Shown: one piece after another, positions 39,244-61,922 of the stretch | How positions within the stretch are numbered: position 1 is the first letter of the stretch | Layout: each line of letters begins with the position of its first letter | Source: Cyanobacterium sp. T60_A2020_053 | GTDB taxonomy: Bacteria > Cyanobacteriota > Cyanobacteriia > Cyanobacteriales > Cyanobacteriaceae | NCBI GenBank assembly: GCA_015272165.1 | Contig: JACYMF010000037.1 | Coordinates: 1-64,000, forward strand | DNA length: 64,000 nucleotides | Direction of reading: 5' to 3' | Notes under the pieces: generated by a model | Seen by the model: only the letters and a program-made list of their open reading frames with translations | What the model was told of the DNA's origin: nothing | Databases searched by the model: none | Made by a program: the position numbers and the translations under genes

Positions 39244-39587
39244 ATATTTTTCCTCCGATAAATAAAAAACTGTGTTAATTTAAATAATATTATAGTTATG
39301 ATGCCCTATCATGTCTATTTTTCAGAATTATCAGCGCCCTTCACCTCATTGACAAAATTCTGTATTTATTTTTAGTATCAATTTTGTAGTTTTTTGTATA
39401 ATTTGACTAAATATTTCAGGTTACAATAACTGTAAAGTTCTTTCTCACTGAGTAGGAGCTTGTAAATTTTCCTAAAATCTCTTCCCACGACAACAAATTT
39501 CATCAAATGCCAATTACATACAGTGTAATTGTCCATTGTCAATTTTCCATTATTCTCACGACACCACTTTTTCATCAGCGCCTATTT

Positions 39588-42500
39588 ATGGAATCTTTAC
39601 CTCATTCTACAAGGGAATTAACGGAAAATTTAACTCAAAGTTTGTCTTGGTTAGATAATTTATCTTGCATTTTTTACCGTTGTCGCAATACTCCTCAATG
39701 GCACATGGAATATATCAGTCGTGGTTGTGAAATAATTACAGGTTATACGGTGCAAGAATTTATTGATGATGAGCCTATTTTCTTTAATAATCTTATTCAT
39801 CCTGATGATCGACTGCAAGTATGGCAGGAAGTACAAAAAGCGGTTGATTTACGTTCTTCTTATAATGTAGAATACCGCATCATTCATCGTAACGGTGAAG
39901 TGCGCTGGATGAGTGAACAAGGAGAGGCAATTTATGACCATAATGGAGAAATAAGTTACTTAGAAGGCATTGTTATTGATATTAGTGACAAAAAGAAAAT
40001 TGAACAGGAAAAAACCCTGTTACTGAATCTGTCTCAAGCTATTTCCAGCGCCCCTGACTTTGAATCAGCGCTACTCTATACTATCGAACAAGTATGTCAG
40101 TTAACTGGATGGGATTTTGGGGAAGCATGGTTGCCTAATTTGTGGGGTGACTGCCTGAATTATTCCATCGGATGGTTTCCTCCTCACAAAAATAAATTAT
40201 CACCTCATCATGTCTCGTTACAAGAATTTCAAGAAAAAAGCCATGCTGTAAGTTTTAAAAAAGGTAGCAGTTTACCCGGGAGAGTATGGCAGTCAAAACA
40301 AATTGAATGGATGAATGATATTGACAAGAATCCTTTATTCTCTCGCCGTCAGATGGCAGAAAATTGTCGTCTCAAATCTGCTTTTGCTGTGCCTATTGTT
40401 GCTAATGATGAAATAGTTGCCATTTTGGTATTTTTTCTGCGCCAAAGAATCATTGTTGATGCTAACCTGTTTTCTTTAGTAGAAATAGTTGCCCATCAAT
40501 TAGGTAATATTTTTCGTCATAAACAAATTGAGTTAGATTTACAAGAAAGTCAAAGACAGCTTAACAGCTTAATTAAATCTACTTCAGGAGTGTTTTTTCG
40601 TATTAGTTATAATAGACAGTGGAGAGAAGATTATATAAGCGATACCTGTGATAAATTAACGGGATACCAACCCTATGAATTAATTAAAAATGACAATATC
40701 AATTTAGCTCAAATTACCCATCCCCTCGATTTGCAACGGGTGATTACTACTATCCAATATGCTATAAATCACCAGAAACCTTATACCATTGAGTATCGAA
40801 TTTTTACTAAAGATAATCAAGAAAAATGGATTTGGGAAAAAGGGGAAGGGGTTTACGATGAAGATAATAATGTTTTGGGTATTGAGGGGTTTATTACTGA
40901 TATTAGCAGTCTGAAATACATGGAGAGGGCGCTATTAGAGGCGGAAAATAAGTATGGCAGTATTTTTGACAATGCCATCGAGGGAATTTTTCAAACTACT
41001 ACTAATGGTTATTATCTCAATGCTAATCAGGCTTTAGCCAAAATGTATGGGTATGATAATCCAACTCAATTAAAGGCTAGTTTAAACGATATTGAAAATT
41101 GTTTATACGTTAATCCCCAACGTCGTCAAGAATTTATGGAGGCTTTGGAAAAAAATGATGTAATTACTAATTTTGAATCTCAAGTTTATCGTCGAGATGG
41201 TAAAGTCATTTGGATTTCGGAAAATGCGCGCGCCATACGAGATATTAATGGTAATTTACTTTATTACGAAGGCACGGTAGAAGAAATTACTAAGTATAAG
41301 GAAGCACAGGAAAAGTTACAACGTCAAGCATTTTATGATTATTTAACTAATTTGCCTAATCGTAGTTTCTTTTTACAAAAACTAACTGATTGTTTATATA
41401 AAATCAAAAAATATGAACGAGGAAAATATGAATTTGGGTTACTATTTTTAGACTGTGATCGTTTTAAAATGGTTAATGATAGTTTAGGTCATCATATTGG
41501 GGATTTACTCCTCGTGGAAGTTGCTAAAAGATTGCGGAAGGCGCTGGGAAATACTCATGTGGTGGCACGTTTAGGCGGTGATGAGTTTACTATTTTGTGT
41601 TATCAAGTCAATAATATTAAACAGTTAATAAAAATAGCTGAAAAGATTAATGATGTTTTTAAACCACCTTTTTTAATTGAAAAACATCGTCTTTTTTGTG
41701 GTATTAGTATTGGCATATTTTTTAGTAGTAATTTAAGTGATCAAGATTTAAAAAGTGTTACTCCTGCTCAAATTATTCAATATGCTGATACTGCTTTGTA
41801 TCGTGCTAAATCTAGTCGAAACAGCTATTATCAGATTTTTCGAGCAGAAATGCACAATGAAGCCTTAGCAGAATTACAATTAGAAAATGATTTACGTCAG
41901 GCGATTGTTTTAGAAGAATTCGTCCCTTTTCATCAACCAATAATTAATCTTTTTGATCAAAAAGTTCATGGTTTTGAAACTTTAATTCGATGGCAACACC
42001 CGATAAAAGGGATCATTTCTCCAGCTAGTTTTATTCCTCTTGCTGAACAAACTGGGTTAATTATTCCCATCGGTTTATGGATGTTTAAACAGGCTTGTTT
42101 ACAGTGGGTGAAATGGCTTAATAAGTTTCCTGATCAGCTATTTTTTATCAGTGTTAATTTATCTTCTCAAGAGTTTAATGCTGATAATTTCTTAGAGCAA
42201 ATTGACTTAATAATTAAGGAAACTAAGGTTAATCCAGCTTATATTAAACTAGAAATAACGGAAAGTTCTCCTATTTTACATGATAGCTCTGCTTTGCAAC
42301 GGTTGAGGGCGCTGATTGACCGTAATTTAAAGTTATGGATTGATGATTTCGGCACCGGTTATTCTAGCTTAAGTTATCTTCATAAACTGCCTATTCATGG
42401 CTTAAAATTAGACCAATCTTTTACTTCTGATATTGAACATAATTTTATTAAGGCTCGAATTGTGGAAGCAATTTTTAGTTTAGCTCAAGATTTGAATTTA

Positions 42501-42632
42501 GAAGTAGTTGCTGAAGGTATCGAAACGGAATCTCAGCTAGAAAAATTGCAAGAATTAGGCTGTCAATTAGGGCAGGGTTATTTATTTGCTAAACCGATGA
42601 ATGTTAAAGATATTGAGCGTTTTTTGAATTAG
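39588..42632 (+). CDS. PAS-GAF-PAS-PAS-GGDEF-EAL sensory c-di-GMP protein
   Basis: The start is taken at ATG 39588 (MESLPHSTRELTENL); an upstream frame to 39507 reads through repeats. The protein has 1014 residues. PAS with PAC is at about 20-145, GAF at about 150-320, PAS at about 325-450 and 455-580. GGDEF is at about 585-760 with an intact RLGGDEF (about 659). EAL is at about 770-1010. In the EAL domain the first motif is ETL (FETLIRW), which keeps the glutamate; later motifs KLEITES and DDFGTGYSSLSYL are canonical. Both synthesis and hydrolysis of c-di-GMP are therefore possible. No transmembrane segment is present. Confidence 0.92.
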   Translation: MESLPHSTRELTENLTQSLSWLDNLSCIFYRCRNTPQWHMEYISRGCEIITGYTVQEFIDDEPIFFNNLIHPDDRLQVWQEVQKAVDLRSSYNVEYRIIHRNGEVRWMSEQGEAIYDHNGEISYLEGIVIDISDKKKIEQEKTLLLNLSQAISSAPDFESALLYTIEQVCQLTGWDFGEAWLPNLWGDCLNYSIGWFPPHKNKLSPHHVSLQEFQEKSHAVSFKKGSSLPGRVWQSKQIEWMNDIDKNPLFSRRQMAENCRLKSAFAVPIVANDEIVAILVFFLRQRIIVDANLFSLVEIVAHQLGNIFRHKQIELDLQESQRQLNSLIKSTSGVFFRISYNRQWREDYISDTCDKLTGYQPYELIKNDNINLAQITHPLDLQRVITTIQYAINHQKPYTIEYRIFTKDNQEKWIWEKGEGVYDEDNNVLGIEGFITDISSLKYMERALLEAENKYGSIFDNAIEGIFQTTTNGYYLNANQALAKMYGYDNPTQLKASLNDIENCLYVNPQRRQEFMEALEKNDVITNFESQVYRRDGKVIWISENARAIRDINGNLLYYEGTVEEITKYKEAQEKLQRQAFYDYLTNLPNRSFFLQKLTDCLYKIKKYERGKYEFGLLFLDCDRFKMVNDSLGHHIGDLLLVEVAKRLRKALGNTHVVARLGGDEFTILCYQVNNIKQLIKIAEKINDVFKPPFLIEKHRLFCGISIGIFFSSNLSDQDLKSVTPAQIIQYADTALYRAKSSRNSYYQIFRAEMHNEALAELQLENDLRQAIVLEEFVPFHQPIINLFDQKVHGFETLIRWQHPIKGIISPASFIPLAEQTGLIIPIGLWMFKQACLQWVKWLNKFPDQLFFISVNLSSQEFNADNFLEQIDLIIKETKVNPAYIKLEITESSPILHDSSALQRLRALIDRNLKLWIDDFGTGYSSLSYLHKLPIHGLKLDQSFTSDIEHNFIKARIVEAIFSLAQDLNLEVVAEGIETESQLEKLQELGCQLGQGYLFAKPMNVKDIERFLN

Positions 42633-54718: not shown

Positions 54719-57202
54719 ATGAGTGAAACTCAAGAATTTCGTCACATATTAGTTATTGAAGACCGTAAAGGCAGAAGAATCGTCTCTTTAGAAGATAGTA
54801 ACTATACTTTGGGTCGAGATTCTAATAACCCCATCGTTATCTACGATTATCAAGTGTCTCGCACCCATGGCACTTTAATCAGGAAAATTGATGATGAAAC
54901 GGGAGGTTATTCTTATCGTATCATTGACGGAGATTTGCAGGGCAAGAGAAGCACCAATGGTTTATTGATTAATGGACATTCTAAAATTTCCCATGAGTTA
55001 AAGCATGGGGATAGTATTCGTTTTGCTAATGAAGCGAAAGCAAACTACTACATTATCGCTACGGAGTCGGGTATAGATTTATTTAATCCTGATGATTTGG
55101 GTAATATGAACAGCGCCCGTAGCACTTTAACTAATTCGGCGACTCAAACCTTAATTTCTAAAGAAGAGGAAACCCACGAAGGAAGTGCAGAAGACCAAGA
55201 AGAATTAATTAGGTTAGCATCTTTTCCAGAGTTAAGCCCCAATCCCATCATTGAGTTAGATTGGGAAGGAAATATAACTTATCTCAATCCAGCGGCCAGT
55301 ATCAAGTTTGAAACTATCCAAGATGATAAACTAGCGCACCCCATCCTAGCTGATTTATTGTCAGAATATAACAATCGTCAGGGTAATTTATTCCTCAGAG
55401 AAGTAAAAATTGGCGCAGAAGTATTTGAACAATATGTCCATTATCTCTCAGAAAAAAAATTAATTAGGTCCTATGTTTTTGATTTTACCAAGAGAAAACA
55501 AGTGGAAGCACAATTGCGAGAAAGTGAGGCTAGGTATCGCGCCATCATTCGTCAAACTTCTGAGGGCATAATTCTAGCTTATGCCAACAACAAACGCATT
55601 ATCGAGGTTAACGATACTTATTGTCGCATGGTGGGTTACACCAGTGCCGAATTACAACAATTCACCCTTTATAATATCATCGCCACGGATTTACAGAAAC
55701 TAAACCAAGATTTAACTAATATTACCGACACAAAGCAGGACTATGTTACTCAATATCTCCATCGCTGTAAAGATGGCTCATTATTAAATTTAGAGTGTAG
55801 TATCAGCGTTAATAGTTACCAAAATAAAGAAATTTTCTGCATTGTGCTGAAAAAAACCAGCGCCCTCAACCAAGAGTCGGAATATAGTATTTATGACAAC
55901 TTTCATGATGTCTTGACTAAATTACCCAATGAAAAACTATTTCGAGAACAACTTAGCATCGCTTTAGCTAATGCCAAAAGATACCAATATTTAATGAGTT
56001 TGATTGTGGTAGAAATCCATAATCTTGCTGAGTTTAGAGATTTAAGAGGAGAAAAAGAAACAGAACGATTTATCCGCAATTTTGCCCAAACTTTCCAATC
56101 CTGTTTACGCGCCGGGGATTTAGCCGCGCGCTGGAATGATAACACTTTTATGGCTTTATTTTCCAGAATTAGAGGACCTAGAGACCCTGCTAAAATTGCC
56201 AAGCGTATGTCTAATGTTTTAGAACAATATTTACAAGAACAAAAAGGTAATATTGATTTAAAATTAACAGTGGGTATGGTGGTATATCCCCTTGATGGTG
56301 ATGATACGGATACTCTAATCAAAAATACCCTTAATTCTTTGGATGAGGGGAGGGGCGCTACGCCACAAAGTTACGGCTTAACGGGCTTCACCATTAGCCC
56401 CAAAACTGCTAGTTTACTAAAATTAGAAAACTTAATCGGTAGTGCCATCCAAGAACAACAGTTCTTCCTTTGTTATCAACCTCAAGTAAATGCACAGGAT
56501 CAAAAATTACAAGGTTTAGAAGCCCTATTACGCTGGAATCATCCTGAATTAGGGAAGGTAACACCACAACATTTCTTACGGTTAGCGGAAGAAACAGATT
56601 TTATGTTGCCTCTCGGTATCTGGATATTACAAACTGCCACCGCTCAAATGCAAAAATGGAATGAAGAGGGATTGCCAAAATTGATTATTGGCGTTAATAT
56701 ATCTGGTCGTCAGTTTAATCAGTCTAATTTCCCTGAAATCGTAGAGAAAGTTTTAGAACAAACAGGATTGCTCCCACAACAGTTAGAATTAGAAATTAAT
56801 GAGGCTTGTTTGTCACAGAACCCTGAATTTGCCACCCGTACTATTAATCGATTATCTCAGTTAAATGTGGGTTTGTGTTTGGATAACTTTGGGGTAGGTA
56901 ATTCCTCCCTCGGTTATTTACAACAGTATCCTTTCCGAGCGGTGAAAATTAGTCCGAGTATTATTACTAAAATGGATCAACATTCTTTACGGGAAAATAC
57001 TCTGGTGAGGGCGCTGGTTACATTCGCTCAAGGTTATAATTTAAGGGTGGTAGCTGTGGGAGTAGAAAAATTAGAACAAATTGACCTGCTTCGAGATTTT
57101 GGCTGTGGGCAAATTCAGGGCAATTTATTTTCTCGCCCTTTACCAACCCAAGAAATTATCGATTTCTTAAAACAAGACAATCACTCTTTAATTTCAGACT
57201 AA
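54719..57202 (+). CDS. FHA-PAS-PAS-GGDEF-EAL protein, first of three (both catalytic domains degenerate)
   Basis: An 827-residue protein. The FHA domain covers about 8-115, with phosphothreonine-binding residues in YTLGRDSNN, VSRTHGTL and KRSTNGLLING. PAS domains are at about 165-260 ([17 protein letters not shown]) and 275-390. The GGDEF-like domain (about 395-555) has WNDNTF (about residue 472) instead of GGDEF. The EAL-like domain (about 575-820) keeps EALLRW (about 599), but DDFGTG has become DNFGVG (about 719). It therefore probably neither makes nor breaks c-di-GMP and may act as a receptor or regulator. FHA suggests input from a Ser/Thr kinase. The following gene starts 38 bases downstream. 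Confidence 0.9.
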   Translation: MSETQEFRHILVIEDRKGRRIVSLEDSNYTLGRDSNNPIVIYDYQVSRTHGTLIRKIDDETGGYSYRIIDGDLQGKRSTNGLLINGHSKISHELKHGDSIRFANEAKANYYIIATESGIDLFNPDDLGNMNSARSTLTNSATQTLISKEEETHEGSAEDQEELIRLASFPELSPNPIIELDWEGNITYLNPAASIKFETIQDDKLAHPILADLLSEYNNRQGNLFLREVKIGAEVFEQYVHYLSEKKLIRSYVFDFTKRKQVEAQLRESEARYRAIIRQTSEGIILAYANNKRIIEVNDTYCRMVGYTSAELQQFTLYNIIATDLQKLNQDLTNITDTKQDYVTQYLHRCKDGSLLNLECSISVNSYQNKEIFCIVLKKTSALNQESEYSIYDNFHDVLTKLPNEKLFREQLSIALANAKRYQYLMSLIVVEIHNLAEFRDLRGEKETERFIRNFAQTFQSCLRAGDLAARWNDNTFMALFSRIRGPRDPAKIAKRMSNVLEQYLQEQKGNIDLKLTVGMVVYPLDGDDTDTLIKNTLNSLDEGRGATPQSYGLTGFTISPKTASLLKLENLIGSAIQEQQFFLCYQPQVNAQDQKLQGLEALLRWNHPELGKVTPQHFLRLAEETDFMLPLGIWILQTATAQMQKWNEEGLPKLIIGVNISGRQFNQSNFPEIVEKVLEQTGLLPQQLELEINEACLSQNPEFATRTINRLSQLNVGLCLDNFGVGNSSLGYLQQYPFRAVKISPSIITKMDQHSLRENTLVRALVTFAQGYNLRVVAVGVEKLEQIDLLRDFGCGQIQGNLFSRPLPTQEIIDFLKQDNHSLISD

Positions 57203-57240
57203 TATAGAAAAAACCCTAGATTAATTGACGAAAAATACCC

Positions 57241-59793
57241 ATGAATGGCGATAATACCAGAACGATCATAAATAACAACTTGAAAGGTTTAACCCATGTT
57301 TTAGTCATTGAAGATGAAAGGTCTCGTCAAACCATTGTACTAGACGAGGGGAAATATTCTGTAGGCAGAGACCCTCGCAATACAATTCCTATTAGTTCTA
57401 AAAAAGTCTCTCGTTTTCACGCCACTGTTTTAAAACGTACGGACACTAAAAATAGTACCTTTTCTTATTGGTTGTTAGATGGTGATTTGCAGGGAAATCG
57501 TAGCACCAATGGCATTTTTATCAATGATGAGAGATGCTTAGTTAAAGAGCTAAAACATGAGGATACCATTAAGTTTGGTCTGGAAATCAAAGCCACTTAT
57601 TATGTCGTCTCAAATGTGGCTGATTTAATGCTATTGCAGTCAGGAGATTTTACGCCCTCAGCGCCCCCCAGCACCACCATAGAGACAGGTAGTGAGTCCA
57701 TAGATTGGAAACAAACCTTTGTGATGCCAGAAGGGAAATTAGAAACCTCAGAGCAAATTCCCAGCAATGCCCAAAGTGAGGAAATGAGCAAATTAGCATC
57801 ATTTCCAGAGTTAAGCCCTAACCCCATTATTGAGTTAAGTTGGGAAGGGGTGATTACTTATTTGAATCCTTCAGCGACCACTAAATTTCCAGAATTACAA
57901 GTTGGTCAATCAAAAGATGATCATCCTCTGTTAGTAGGATTGGTCAAAAATACTAAAAATCATGGTAGTAATACTAATCTTTTTGTTAGAGAAATAAGTA
58001 TTAAAAATCAAGTTTTTGAGCAATATATTCATTATTTATCTGAGCAGAAATTAATCCGTTGTTATGTATTTGATTTTACTAAAAGAAAAGTAATTGAAGC
58101 CCAATTAAAAGATAGTGAGCAAAGATATAAAACAGTTTTAAACCAAACCAGAGAAGGAATATTTTTAGTAGATGCCAGTAATAAAAAAGTCTTGGAAGTT
58201 AATAACGCTTTTTGTGATCTATTAGGTTATAACTTAGAAGAAATTTATTCTCTAAATCTTTATGATTTATTGTCTTTAGAGCAACAGGAAATTGATGTAA
58301 AAATTAAGAGTATTATTAGCAGGAAAACTACTCAGTGGAAAGAAGAACAAAGAGCAAGTTTTCTCAAAAAAGATGGTAGTTTAATTGAGGTAGAATGTAA
58401 TTCTTCTTTGATTACTTATGGTGATCAAAAAATTATTTCCTTCAGTTTAAGCCCTCTCGGTAGGCAAATTGATCAATCCACAGTAATTCAAGAGCAAGGA
58501 TTATATGATTTAGAAACAGGATTACCCAATCGTCATTTGTTTATGGAGCAATTAAACACGGCTATAGCTAATAGTACTCGTACTCAGGGTTTATTGTGTG
58601 TGATTTTTATTGAGTTGGCATTACAAACAAATTCCACGGAAGCGGTTTCCTATCGTCTCAAAACCAGTATTATTGATGGTTTTTCTAAACGTTTGCGCGC
58701 TTCTTTACGTTCGGGGGATACTGTGGCAAGATGGCAAGATAATCAATTTGTTTGTCTTCTCCCCATTGTTAAAACCGTTAAGGATATAGGCAAAGTGCGT
58801 AATCGAGTGGTAGAGGCACTGAAACCACCATTTTTTATTGATAATCAAAAAATTTACGTTAGAACTAATATTGGTATTGCTATCTATGGAGAAGAAAGTA
58901 ATCAATCTAACACCATTCTTAATCATGCCCAAACTGCTATGTTGAAAAGTAAGGAGACGGGCGCTGGTAGCTATCAATTCTATGATATTAAGGTACAACA
59001 GGAAATTGATCGTCTCTTAAGATTAGAAAAATTGCTATATCATGCCCTAGATAAACAGGAATTTTCCCTATACTATCAACCCAGAGTAAATATTAAAACC
59101 AAACAAATCAAAGGAGTAGAAGCTCTGTTAAGATGGTCTCATCCTGAATTAGGAGAAGTTAAACCTTCTCAGTTTATTCCTTTAGCCGAAGAAACAGGGT
59201 TAATTGTGCCTATTGGTGAATGGGTATTGGAAACCGCTTGTTTTCAGCATAAAGTGTGGCAAAAAAATAATGTGACTAACCAGCCTATTCACGTTAATAT
59301 TTCAATACAACAGTTTCAGCAACCTAATTTTGCCAGTGTCGTGTCAAATATTTTAGACAAAACTAAATTACAGCCTGAATTTTTAGAGTTGGAAATTACC
59401 GAAAAAATTATTACTGCTGATGTGGATTTGGCGGTAAAAACTTTGACAGAGTTGAATCAGTTGGGGGTAAAAATTTGTCTTGATGATTTTGGTGTGGGAA
59501 TGTCGGCGGTGGGTTATTTAAAACAGTTTAAATTTCACACTATGAAAATTGATAACGTGGTAGTACAAAATTTACACCACAAATCAGAAGATTTACCCAT
59601 GATTGGGGCAATTATTGCCATTGGCAAGAGTTTTCACTTAGACGTGGTAGCAGAAGGTATTGAAAATCAAGCTCAATTAGATTTACTATGTGAGTTAGGA
59701 TGTGATGAAATACAGGGTAATTTATTTACTCAACCGCTACCGATGGAGGATGCTACTAATTTTTTGGCAAATCCTACTTATAATTTTACTTAA
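57241..59793 (+). CDS. FHA-PAS-PAS-GGDEF-EAL protein, second of three (degenerate GGDEF)
   Basis: An 850-residue paralogue of the preceding gene. The FHA domain shows [18 protein letters not shown] and RSTNGIFIN (about 15-120). Two PAS domains follow ([17 protein letters not shown]). In the GGDEF-like domain GGDEF is replaced by WQDNQF (about residue 496). In the EAL domain, EALLRW (about 625), ELEITE and DDFGVG (about 746) keep most catalytic residues, so phosphodiesterase activity is possible. Located 38 bases after the first and 20 bases before the third, in one operon. Confidence 0.9.
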
Positions 59794-59813
59794 TTATTTC
59801 CTAATAATATCTA

Positions 59814-61922
59814 ATGAGTAGTAGTCACCTCAAGATTAATCATGTGCTAGTAGTGGATGAGTCTGGTGTACAGAGATCAATTATGCTAGAGTCTAGTATT
59901 TATTCTGTGGGCAGACATTCTGATAGTAGTGTTAAGCTAAATTCTCCAGCCGTTTCGAGGAATCATGCTACTTTAATTCGCAGCGACATTAATGAAAATC
60001 AATGCGCTTACATTCTCATTGATGGGGATTTACAAGGTAATCGTAGTCAAAATGGTATTTTAGTTAATGGCAAAAAAACTATTCGTCGTCAGTTAGAAAA
60101 TGGCGATGTAATTTTATTTGGTAGTGATGAGATTAGGGGAATTTATCAAATTGAAATTGACACTAATCACAAAAAAGACGAACCAGAAAAGGATGATAAT
60201 TGGCGAGTTGATGGTAGCTATCGTTTTAATATTCCTAGGGAAGAGTTACAAAATACTTTAATCATTTCTGAACAAAATTTGAGTGGTAATTTGCAGGAGG
60301 GCGAGATGAAAAGATTAGCTTCTTTTCCTGAGTTGTCTCCTCAGCCGATTATTGAGCTTGATTATAGCGGTGCGATAACTTATATGAATCCCAGCGCCCA
60401 CCTCTGTTTTGGGGATTTGTTGCCTACGGTAGAAAATCCCATTCATCCTCTCATTGCTAATTTAGCCATTCCAAAGGATACCCAAAATAGTCAATTAGTA
60501 GTTAGGGAAATTCAAATTAAGGATCAGTTTTTTGAACAATATATTCACTATCTTTCTAAATATAATGTTATTCGCAGTTATATTTTTGATATTACCGAGC
60601 GGAAAAACTCTGAAGTTAAACTAAAATATCAGGCATTTCATGATTCTTTAACGGGTATCGGTAATCGAGATTATTTTTATTGGCAACTACACAAATTATT
60701 ATTGGATGTGGAGGAAAATAAAGATAAGTTGTCGGTATTATTTATCGATATTGATCGTTTTAAAAATGTTAATGATACTCTAAACCATACTACAGGGGAT
60801 AGGTTACTAGAAAGTTTTGCTTATCGTTTGTTGTCAATTTTACCTAGTAATTGCTGTTTGGCTCGGTGGGGGGGAGATGAATTTACGGTGGCAATCCAAG
60901 ATACGGTTGTCCATAATGTCAATCATGTTATTGAATTAATTATGGGCAGTTTAAAAGAGCCATTCCTCATTGATAATTACACTATCTATGTTACTTGTAG
61001 TATTGGGGCAGCCATTTATCCCCAAGATGGGCAAAGTTTAGAGCAATTAATTCGTAATGCTGATATTGCTTTGTCTCGCGCCAAGCAAATGGGCAAAAAT
61101 AACTCTCAATACTATACCAATGATTTAAGTCAACAACAAATGTTTTTATTTGAGTTGGAAAATAGTTTATATGATGCCATTGCTCAAAATGAGTTATATC
61201 TTAATTATCAACCTAAGTTGGATTTACAAACTAACCAGATTATTAGTGTGGAGGCGCTGGTGCGCTGGAATCATCCTTCTTTAGGAGTAGTATCTCCCAG
61301 CAAGTTTATCCCCTTGGCTGAGGAAACGGGCTTAATCATACCTATCGGTGAATGGGTGTTGGAGTGCGCTTGTCGTCAAACTAGGCAATGGTTAGATATG
61401 GGTTTTAATTTACATTCTATTGCCGTTAATGTATCGGTAAAACAGTTTAAACAGGATAATTTTGTGGAGAGAGTCAAGGAAATTATTACTTCTACTGGTT
61501 TGAAACCCGAACTTTTGGAGTTGGAAGTAACGGAGAGTTTGTTAATGCAGGATAGCGAAAAAACAGCGAAAGTCATTAAGAAATTGACGGAATATGGCGT
61601 TAAATTCTCTTTGGATGATTTTGGCACCGGTTATTCTTCCCTTAGTTATCTCAAAAAATTTCCCTTTCATACCATCAAAATTGATCAGTCTTTTGTCCGA
61701 GATTTGACGGTAAATCAACAAGATCAGGCTTTAATTGATGCGGTAATTACTCTCGGTAAGGGTTATAACATGAAGGTGATTGCTGAGGGAGTGGAAAATG
61801 AGGCTCAGTTAAAAATTTTACGGGATTTTCAATGTAATATCATTCAAGGGCAATGGTTAAGTATGCCCATGGGCGCTGATGATTGCACTGCTTTTATGAG
61901 AAGTTATCCTCAACGTTATTGA
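59814..61922 (+). CDS. FHA-PAS-GGDEF-EAL protein, third of three (canonical motifs)
   Basis: A 702-residue, shorter paralogue. The FHA domain (about 10-115) contains YSVGRHSDSSV, VSRNHATL and RSQNGILVNG. A single PAS domain ([17 protein letters not shown]) is followed directly by a complete GGDEF domain (about 270-440, RWGGDEF about residue 349) and a complete EAL domain (about 455-700). The EAL domain has EALVRW, ELEVTES and DDFGTGYSSLSYLKKFPFHTIK. Unlike its two neighbours it looks able to both make and degrade c-di-GMP. It starts 20 bases after gene two. Confidence 0.92.
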   Translation: MSSSHLKINHVLVVDESGVQRSIMLESSIYSVGRHSDSSVKLNSPAVSRNHATLIRSDINENQCAYILIDGDLQGNRSQNGILVNGKKTIRRQLENGDVILFGSDEIRGIYQIEIDTNHKKDEPEKDDNWRVDGSYRFNIPREELQNTLIISEQNLSGNLQEGEMKRLASFPELSPQPIIELDYSGAITYMNPSAHLCFGDLLPTVENPIHPLIANLAIPKDTQNSQLVVREIQIKDQFFEQYIHYLSKYNVIRSYIFDITERKNSEVKLKYQAFHDSLTGIGNRDYFYWQLHKLLLDVEENKDKLSVLFIDIDRFKNVNDTLNHTTGDRLLESFAYRLLSILPSNCCLARWGGDEFTVAIQDTVVHNVNHVIELIMGSLKEPFLIDNYTIYVTCSIGAAIYPQDGQSLEQLIRNADIALSRAKQMGKNNSQYYTNDLSQQQMFLFELENSLYDAIAQNELYLNYQPKLDLQTNQIISVEALVRWNHPSLGVVSPSKFIPLAEETGLIIPIGEWVLECACRQTRQWLDMGFNLHSIAVNVSVKQFKQDNFVERVKEIITSTGLKPELLELEVTESLLMQDSEKTAKVIKKLTEYGVKFSLDDFGTGYSSLSYLKKFPFHTIKIDQSFVRDLTVNQQDQALIDAVITLGKGYNMKVIAEGVENEAQLKILRDFQCNIIQGQWLSMPMGADDCTAFMRSYPQRY

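Follow-up and report, generated by a model that had tools for sequence, protein, structure and literature searches.

A conserved triplet of FHA-bearing GGDEF-EAL paralogues in a cyanobacterial family, with complementary retention of active and inhibitory sites

Why would a cyanobacterium keep side by side three proteins with domains for the turnover of cyclic diguanylate (c-di-GMP) when two of them have lost the motif needed to make it? This question is raised by a locus of Cyanobacterium sp. T60_A2020_053, found in a 64,000-nucleotide stretch of DNA (hereafter the window; assembly GCA_015272165.1, contig JACYMF010000037.1, positions 1 to 64,000). Three consecutive open reading frames (ORFs) on the + strand, gene 1 (54719..57202), gene 2 (57241..59793), and gene 3 (59814..61922), encode proteins of 827, 850, and 702 aa and are separated by 38 and 20 bases; the ORF calls agree on this with an earlier note on the same DNA. 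That note gave all three proteins the order FHA-PAS-GGDEF-EAL. FHA, GGDEF, and EAL do each exceed the Pfam cut-off in all three (the FHA match of gene 1 lies at 54803..55024, +), but a Pfam PAS domain was found in genes 1 and 2 only: gene 3 lacks this second PAS and has just the extra PAS-like block that is common to the three proteins C-terminal to FHA. Gene 1 is thus composed of FHA, linker, PAS-like block, PAS, degenerate GGDEF, and degenerate EAL; gene 2 has the same order with an intact EAL; and gene 3 consists of FHA, linker, PAS-like block, an intact GGDEF without inhibitory site, and an intact EAL.

Within the triplet, the GGDEF active site (A-site) and the RxxD inhibitory site (I-site) are kept in complementary fashion: two proteins with a dead A-site and a kept I-site stand beside one with a live A-site and a lost I-site. 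Gene 1 reads WNDNTF at the GGDEF position (residues 473-477, NDNTF, 56135..56149) and DNFGVG at the DDFGTG position, and gene 2 reads WQDNQF (QDNQF, 58735..58749) and DDFGVG, as had been noted earlier; their I-sites are RAGD (R464-D467, 56108..56119) and RSGD (58708..58719), respectively. Gene 3 reads WGGDEF (GGDEF, 60870..60884) and DDFGTG, with PSNC (60843..60854) at the RxxD position. For the EAL domains, residue roles follow the RocR numbering, as given in an excerpt of PMC7911125. All checked EAL residues are present in genes 2 and 3, and gene 1 has lost two metal ligands: D296 is replaced by N (D722 N723 stand at the D295 D296 positions, 56882..56887) and E352 by V (V780, 57056..57058, where AEGVE has become AVGVE). 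Gene 1 keeps the other eight of the ten checked positions (Q161, E175, R179, N233, E265, D295, K316, and Q372), and these eight are invariant in a 13-row alignment of gene 1. All of these features lie on the + strand. The earlier description of a graded loss of catalytic motifs, ending in a fully canonical gene 3, was therefore abandoned: the A-site and the I-site are complementary, the EAL of gene 2 is intact, the E352 loss in gene 1 had been missed, and gene 3 is without its I-site as well as without a second PAS.

The same pattern recurs throughout the taxonomic family of the window, for which 15 genomes, its own included, were compared, counting one copy per genome. FHA-PAS module matches occur in 15/15 genomes, one of which is Geminocystis sp. 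GBBB08 (G012), and the three genes stand in the order 1-2-3 on one strand in 11 of the 15; among these 11, gene 3 is cut by a contig end in G001 and bears two in-frame stops in G012. In another genome, G005 (67% complete), FHA matches likewise follow this order, all three with broken frames. In all 14 readable copies of gene 1, the A-site is lost, the I-site is kept, and both D296 (changed to N, G, or S) and E352 (changed to V) are gone. Gene 2 combines a lost A-site with a kept I-site and a kept EAL in 14/14 copies. Gene 3 keeps WGGDEF and lacks the I-site, again in 14/14 readable copies, and its EAL positions E175, N233, E265, D295, D296, K316, E352, and Q372 are intact wherever they can be read (13/13). 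The triplet and its motif losses are consequently a feature conserved across the family and not of a single strain.

Motif loss of this kind might also mark genes 1 and 2 as decaying duplicates without function. Such decay would fit G002, which has no detected gene 2 and carries a gene 1-gene 3 fusion, as well as the broken frames of G005. However, the ratio of nonsynonymous to synonymous substitution rates (dN/dS), calculated between close genomes for up to five pairs per gene (four to five for the dead domains), contradicts it. In the dead GGDEF domains, dN/dS was 0.020-0.120 for gene 1 and 0.034-0.121 for gene 2; it was 0.052-0.092 in the dead EAL of gene 1, where computable, and 0.00-0.040 in the FHA and PAS-like portions of the same gene. 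These values are rough, because in many comparisons dS approaches or exceeds 1, with synonymous sites often near saturation, and three of them (two for gene 1, one for gene 3) were not computable. Gene 1 has moreover persisted in 15/15 and gene 2 in 14/15 genomes, counting fragments and the fusion. Decay was rejected on these grounds as hardly credible; the low ratios, even if rough, argue for purifying selection on the dead domains, which would imply a kept function.

The age of the pattern can be gauged from a quick tree of FHA-PAS modules, built with GGDEF and EAL columns excluded. It comprises 114 of 135 ORFs with FHA and PAS-like block, identical N-terminal modules having been collapsed and those shorter than 200 aa omitted; the linker counts given below use the same set. 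Each gene forms a clade of its own, with 15 rows for gene 1, 13 for gene 2, and 12 for gene 3, supported at 100, 99, and 99 (Shimodaira-Hasegawa-like approximate likelihood ratio test); a long branch (L043_6338) is flagged as joining beside the clade of gene 3. Grouped with gene 1, at a support of 94, are rows from Gomphosphaeria and from a Prochloraceae genome; the checked EAL residues persist in them, and the Gomphosphaeria relative has GGEEF, so that the double loss in gene 1 most likely arose inside the family. Scored with a gene 1 profile, the 13 full-length family copies from which it was built reach 1543-1655 bits and the G002 fusion 1282 bits, as against at most 1022 bits outside the family, among the matches listed for 291 genomes of the order. 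At 16 gene 1-like loci outside the family, E352 is kept in 12 and replaced by Gln in four (L146-L148 and L159), and Val is found in none. The FHA-PAS module itself is far more widespread: it was present in 72 of 100 genomes, the source genome among them (E <= 1e-20, among the matches listed), and in 51 loci of named genomes.

Some of these relatives show degenerate domains of their own. Tandem arrangements of two or three genes that include a dead GGDEF are also present at L042, L043, L045, L110/L111, and L116-L119. A separate lineage of double-dead GGDEF-EAL proteins (L128, L129, and L044, the last on the same contig as L123) keeps an LRAGD I-site and reads WDSHQF, WDSQEF, or WDNHQF, with AQNVT or AQGVT. 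In Pleurocapsales and relatives (L045, L073, and L076-L082), a WxEDKF-like degenerate GGDEF recurs with a mostly intact I-site (lost in L078), and several of their linkers have two successive Thr motifs.

What could three such proteins do together? Gene 3 would make c-di-GMP and could also break it, and with its I-site lost the usual product feedback would be absent. It resembles the bifunctional GGDEF-EAL class in its A-site and EAL residues and departs from it in lacking the RxxD I-site, which is common in that class, though not universal. Gene 2 would not take part in synthesis; it is predicted to be a phosphodiesterase, given its complete EAL, and to sense the c-di-GMP level at its kept I-site. 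The earlier proposal that two of the paralogues act as effectors or inhibitors of the third has to be revised here, since gene 2 is likelier a phosphodiesterase and only gene 1 looks doubly dead. Alternatively, gene 2 could be a phosphodiesterase activated by guanosine triphosphate (GTP), with its degenerate GGDEF binding GTP as in CC3396. The arrangement of CC3396, a degenerate GGDEF with an active EAL, is comparable (PMC3527489, in excerpt), and some gene 2 copies retain the second glycine of the motif (WQGSQF, WEGPIF). Nevertheless, none of the 14 copies retains the first glycine or either acidic residue, which makes GTP binding doubtful and this alternative very improbable.

Gene 1, having lost catalysis at both sites while keeping the I-site and most of the EAL ligand residues, is predicted to be a c-di-GMP receptor that would pass its signal on by protein contact. 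There are precedents for each half. PopA and SgmT, in which a degenerate A-site accompanies an intact I-site, are c-di-GMP receptors according to an excerpt of PMC3509222, and they resemble genes 1 and 2 in having lost the A-site and kept RxxD. PopA is a response regulator and SgmT a hybrid histidine kinase, unlike the FHA-bearing genes 1 and 2 (same excerpt). For the EAL half, FimX binds c-di-GMP with an EAL that lacks essential residues; it keeps four of the ten listed as essential (PMC3527489, in excerpt), as compared with eight of ten checked positions in gene 1. FimX and LapD are, like gene 1, proteins with a dual degenerate GGDEF-EAL (PMC3527489, in excerpt). Both match the gene 1 profile, LapD also by fold. 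The GGDEF-EAL half of gene 1 matches the solved structures of MorA, DosP, PA0575, and LapD. We take PopA and SgmT to be devoid of FHA, EAL, and a paralogue set, and presumably FimX is a REC-PAS protein and LapD a periplasmic and HAMP protein, neither of them with FHA. Gene 1 would work like FimX and LapD, as far as its residues can tell, without being a member of their group, since it has FHA and PAS instead.

With these three roles, feedback sensing, which normally resides within one cyclase, would be distributed over sister proteins. Genes 1 and 2 might, on the other hand, exert their effect solely through contact with other proteins, either as allosteric partners of gene 3 or different GGDEF-EAL enzymes or as inhibitors that titrate them, RxxD being merely structural. 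Their GGDEF domains are indeed degenerate at the A-site, and the common N-terminal module, whose identity to gene 1 is 48% for gene 2 and 38% for gene 3, could permit mixed oligomers. Yet RxxD is kept in 14/14 readable copies of both genes, from which the A-site has gone, and was dropped in gene 3; since the protein with a live A-site has lost RxxD and those with a dead one keep it, the fold seems not to need this motif. We therefore regard action by contact alone as unlikely, and retain c-di-GMP sensing at the kept I-sites as the preferred reading.

The second question is how the three proteins might be addressed or brought together, and it leads to their N-terminal part. FHA domains read phosphothreonine. 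In an alignment of 62 family proteins, the FHA pocket residues G32, R33, S47, R48, H50, and N80 are invariant (the alignments, of 62 and 40 rows, were picked from 80 full-length ORFs), and in the wider set the loose FHA patterns GR, SRxH, and SxNG are found in 114, 114, and 113 of the 114 modules. The linker that separates FHA from the PAS-like block is variable and bears a Thr followed by two hydrophobic residues. This motif is present in 40/40 triplet rows, and the Thr is invariant within each paralogue group: Thr136 and Thr144 in gene 1 (55124..55150, +; Thr144 starts TLI; both invariant in the 13-row alignment and also in 15 rows), Thr159 in gene 2 (KQTFVMPE, 57715..57717, +; 13/13 rows), and Thr148 in gene 3 (QNTLIISE, 60255..60257, +; 12/12 rows). 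In the window, gene 3 has Ile at +3, gene 2 has Met, and gene 1 has Ser. Across the wider set, Q, E, or D precedes the Thr in 77 of 116 occurrences. The Thr motif was found in 93/114 FHA-PAS proteins versus 25.6 +/- 4.2 in shuffles, and after redundancy removal in 45/62 versus 12.9 (70% identity) and 28/44 versus 9.6 (60%).

AlphaFold models of genes 1 and 3 were consulted solely for the order of the domains and for disorder. Mean predicted local distance difference test (pLDDT) scores are 83.6 and 85.4, and predicted template modelling (pTM) scores are 0.41 and 0.56; with such pTM values and low full-chain template modelling scores, the models do not fix the orientation of the domains. In both proteins, the strands and helices of the PAS-like block follow one another as in a PAS domain, and the linker in front of it is modelled as disordered, with a pLDDT below 50 (residues 126-166 in gene 1, 118-160 in gene 3), followed by a helix C-terminal to the motif (157-168 and 153-159, respectively).

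This helix is also what lends some appeal to a different explanation, in which the Thr-hydrophobic-hydrophobic stretch, never phosphorylated, serves as a short motif for binding or structure; phosphorylation is a matter on which the shuffles are silent. The Ser version of the motif is not enriched, with 22/114 versus 39.0 +/- 4.8 in shuffles (19 versus 30.2 after removal of redundancy at 90%), and such non-enrichment is expected of an FHA ligand, since it is phosphothreonine that these domains read. The purely structural explanation accordingly seems rather unlikely. By our preferred reading, a Ser/Thr kinase would phosphorylate the invariant linker Thr, which would then be bound by an FHA domain, either in its own chain or in a sister chain; this binding would gate activity or assemble mixed complexes. 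The earlier note had linked the FHA domains to Ser/Thr kinase signalling in general terms; the invariant pocket agrees with this link, and the conserved linker Thr makes the putative coupling more specific than was proposed. The source genome contains 18 Pkinase matches over the cut-off.

The FHA/Thr-linker block is not confined to c-di-GMP proteins. It also precedes HisKA-HATPase, with GAF or a receiver, at L048:9968-12094 and L120:2440-4482, which suggests that it may provide a phosphothreonine input to two-component systems. The same facts could nevertheless mean that FHA and the Thr linker form an independent module for recruitment, either to kinases or to further FHA proteins, and that the c-di-GMP domains are mere cargo: the Thr motif is present in both checked histidine kinases and in 22 of the 23 module proteins in which no GGDEF was detected, and the short FHA proteins L162 and L163 of the source genome end near TLI and TVM. 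That alternative leaves unexplained the strict fixation of c-di-GMP motifs in each paralogue, and we consider it quite unlikely. One of these short proteins, L162 (G000:C8:53500-57000), is 141 aa long; its FHA domain is related, DITLID lies in its C-terminal part, and it might be a free adaptor bearing the same Thr motif. Most family genomes also have matches to short FHA frames, 144-184 aa in length. The source genome has 12 FHA matches in total, three of which are the triplet; among six stretches with its other FHA genes, two (L164 and L165) gave no protein by the FHA profile.

Taken together, the triplet would be a fixed three-part c-di-GMP unit that is gated or assembled by FHA/phosphothreonine binding, a reading to which we give slightly less than an even chance. 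A more ambitious version is put forward only tentatively, as being improbable in its full form: a kinase-addressed c-di-GMP homeostat, in which feedback-free synthesis, level-sensing hydrolysis, and a dead read-out subunit would be joined in trans by FHA-phosphothreonine contacts. In this version, the catalytic and feedback sites of one ancestral enzyme would have been divided among the paralogues and kept apart family-wide, and the block of FHA, Thr linker, and PAS would act as a portable switch, operated by phosphorylation, that cyanobacterial histidine kinases share. The proposed mechanism is weakest at two points: which kinase acts, and whether the proteins assemble in trans.

Several observations weigh against a fixed, kinase-gated unit. 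First, complementarity of the A-site and the I-site was not significant in the wider set once phylogeny was considered. Among 90 rows (those of the 114 that have exactly one readable GGDEF), 49 had a lost A-site with a kept I-site, 17 had both sites kept, 15 had a kept A-site with a lost I-site, and nine had lost both, but this amounts to three independent starred contrasts, or six over all branches. Complementarity is therefore claimed for the triplet clades only. Second, G007 and G010 carry genes 1, 2, and 3 at three separate places, so that a shared operon is not obligatory; the motif pattern is unchanged in these unlinked copies (L097-L099 and L102-L104). Third, the set is not everywhere complete: G002 has gene 1 fused in frame to gene 3 and no detected gene 2, gene 3 is broken in G012, and all three genes are frame-broken in G005. 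Fourth, the excess of the linker Thr motif shrinks as redundancy is removed further, to 12/23 versus 5.4 at 50% identity (shuffle maximum 12) and 9/17 versus 4.2 at 45% (shuffle maximum 10), and all of the Thr-motif figures are descriptive, because the pattern was defined after the sequences had been inspected. Two other FHA-PAS proteins of the source genome (L125 and L126) have no linker motif, and the +3 residue of gene 1, Ser, is not hydrophobic. Lastly, no Pkinase match was found on the contig of the window.

Two of these cases deserve a closer description. The G002 fusion (L091:4046-7768, 1240 aa) joins a gene 1 cut within its EAL to gene 3 just past the linker Thr; because the gene 1 EAL is truncated and the gene 3 FHA and linker Thr are removed, it is no evidence of contact between the two proteins, and a deletion is as likely. 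In G012, a metagenome-assembled genome, the gene 3 with two in-frame stops (L106) is either a pseudogene or an assembly error.

How does the triplet compare with known FHA and c-di-GMP systems? Among the papers compared, the closest studied relative by domain order is CdgSH of Anabaena PCC 7120 (FHA-PAS-GAF-GGDEF-EAL), likened here by architecture and not by sequence homology: as in the triplet, FHA and a sensor domain precede GGDEF-EAL in a cyanobacterial protein (PMC8682488, in excerpt). CdgSH is bifunctional, with phosphodiesterase activity dominating. It differs in having all catalytic residues, an auto-inhibition site, and a GAF domain, and the excerpt of PMC8682488 mentions neither a triplet nor a dead paralogue. 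The same three domains are combined in the FHA-GGDEF-EAL hybrid of Microcystis aeruginosa, present in 23/24 genomes; however, there is one per genome in the table rows of PMC7063779, an excerpt of which mentions no degenerate paralogue set. In Bdellovibrio DgcB, FHA stands beside GGDEF and, as we propose for the linker Thr, its ligand is a conserved Thr peptide of the protein itself: binding of this N-terminal-tail peptide by FHA switches on the attached cyclase (PMC6733907, in excerpt). DgcB differs from the triplet in that its Thr lies in the N-terminal tail and not after FHA, its I-site is present, and it is a single enzyme (same excerpt). Of the DgcB-type features, the FHA pocket and the same-chain Thr are found in the triplet, and the hydrophobic +3 residue and the N-terminal tail position do not hold for it. 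We also take DgcB to be without PAS and EAL. The Synechocystis genes slr1692 and slr1693, considered as possible FHA-GGDEF genes, were dropped from this comparison as a literature check did not bear this out: slr1693 came up with a paper on response-regulator mutants and slr1692 with none. Degenerate receptors and self-peptide FHA gating are thus known separately; no description of a conserved FHA-GGDEF-EAL set of three paralogues with partitioned sites, or of the linker Thr, was found in listings of the openly licensed literature and in excerpts of a few of its papers.

Two open questions are touched by this arrangement: the crosstalk between Ser/Thr kinases and c-di-GMP, and the reason why many genomes retain catalytically dead GGDEF-EAL proteins. 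A natural triplet reduces both to a few single-residue tests, and some of its hosts are likely culturable.

The surroundings of the locus add little to its interpretation. A scan for promoters and terminators stayed at the level of shuffles (30 versus 32.0, and 4 versus 4.9). The search for conserved neighbours, in which five flanking proteins were compared with 23 short-flank loci, gave a LON-domain gene in one genome only (L107/L041), so that no partner gene is suggested by context. The window does hold a fourth GGDEF-EAL gene at 39507-42632 (+), which encodes 1041 aa with intact LGGDEF and EAL motifs and no FHA by the profile used, and there are 10 EAL matches in the whole source genome.

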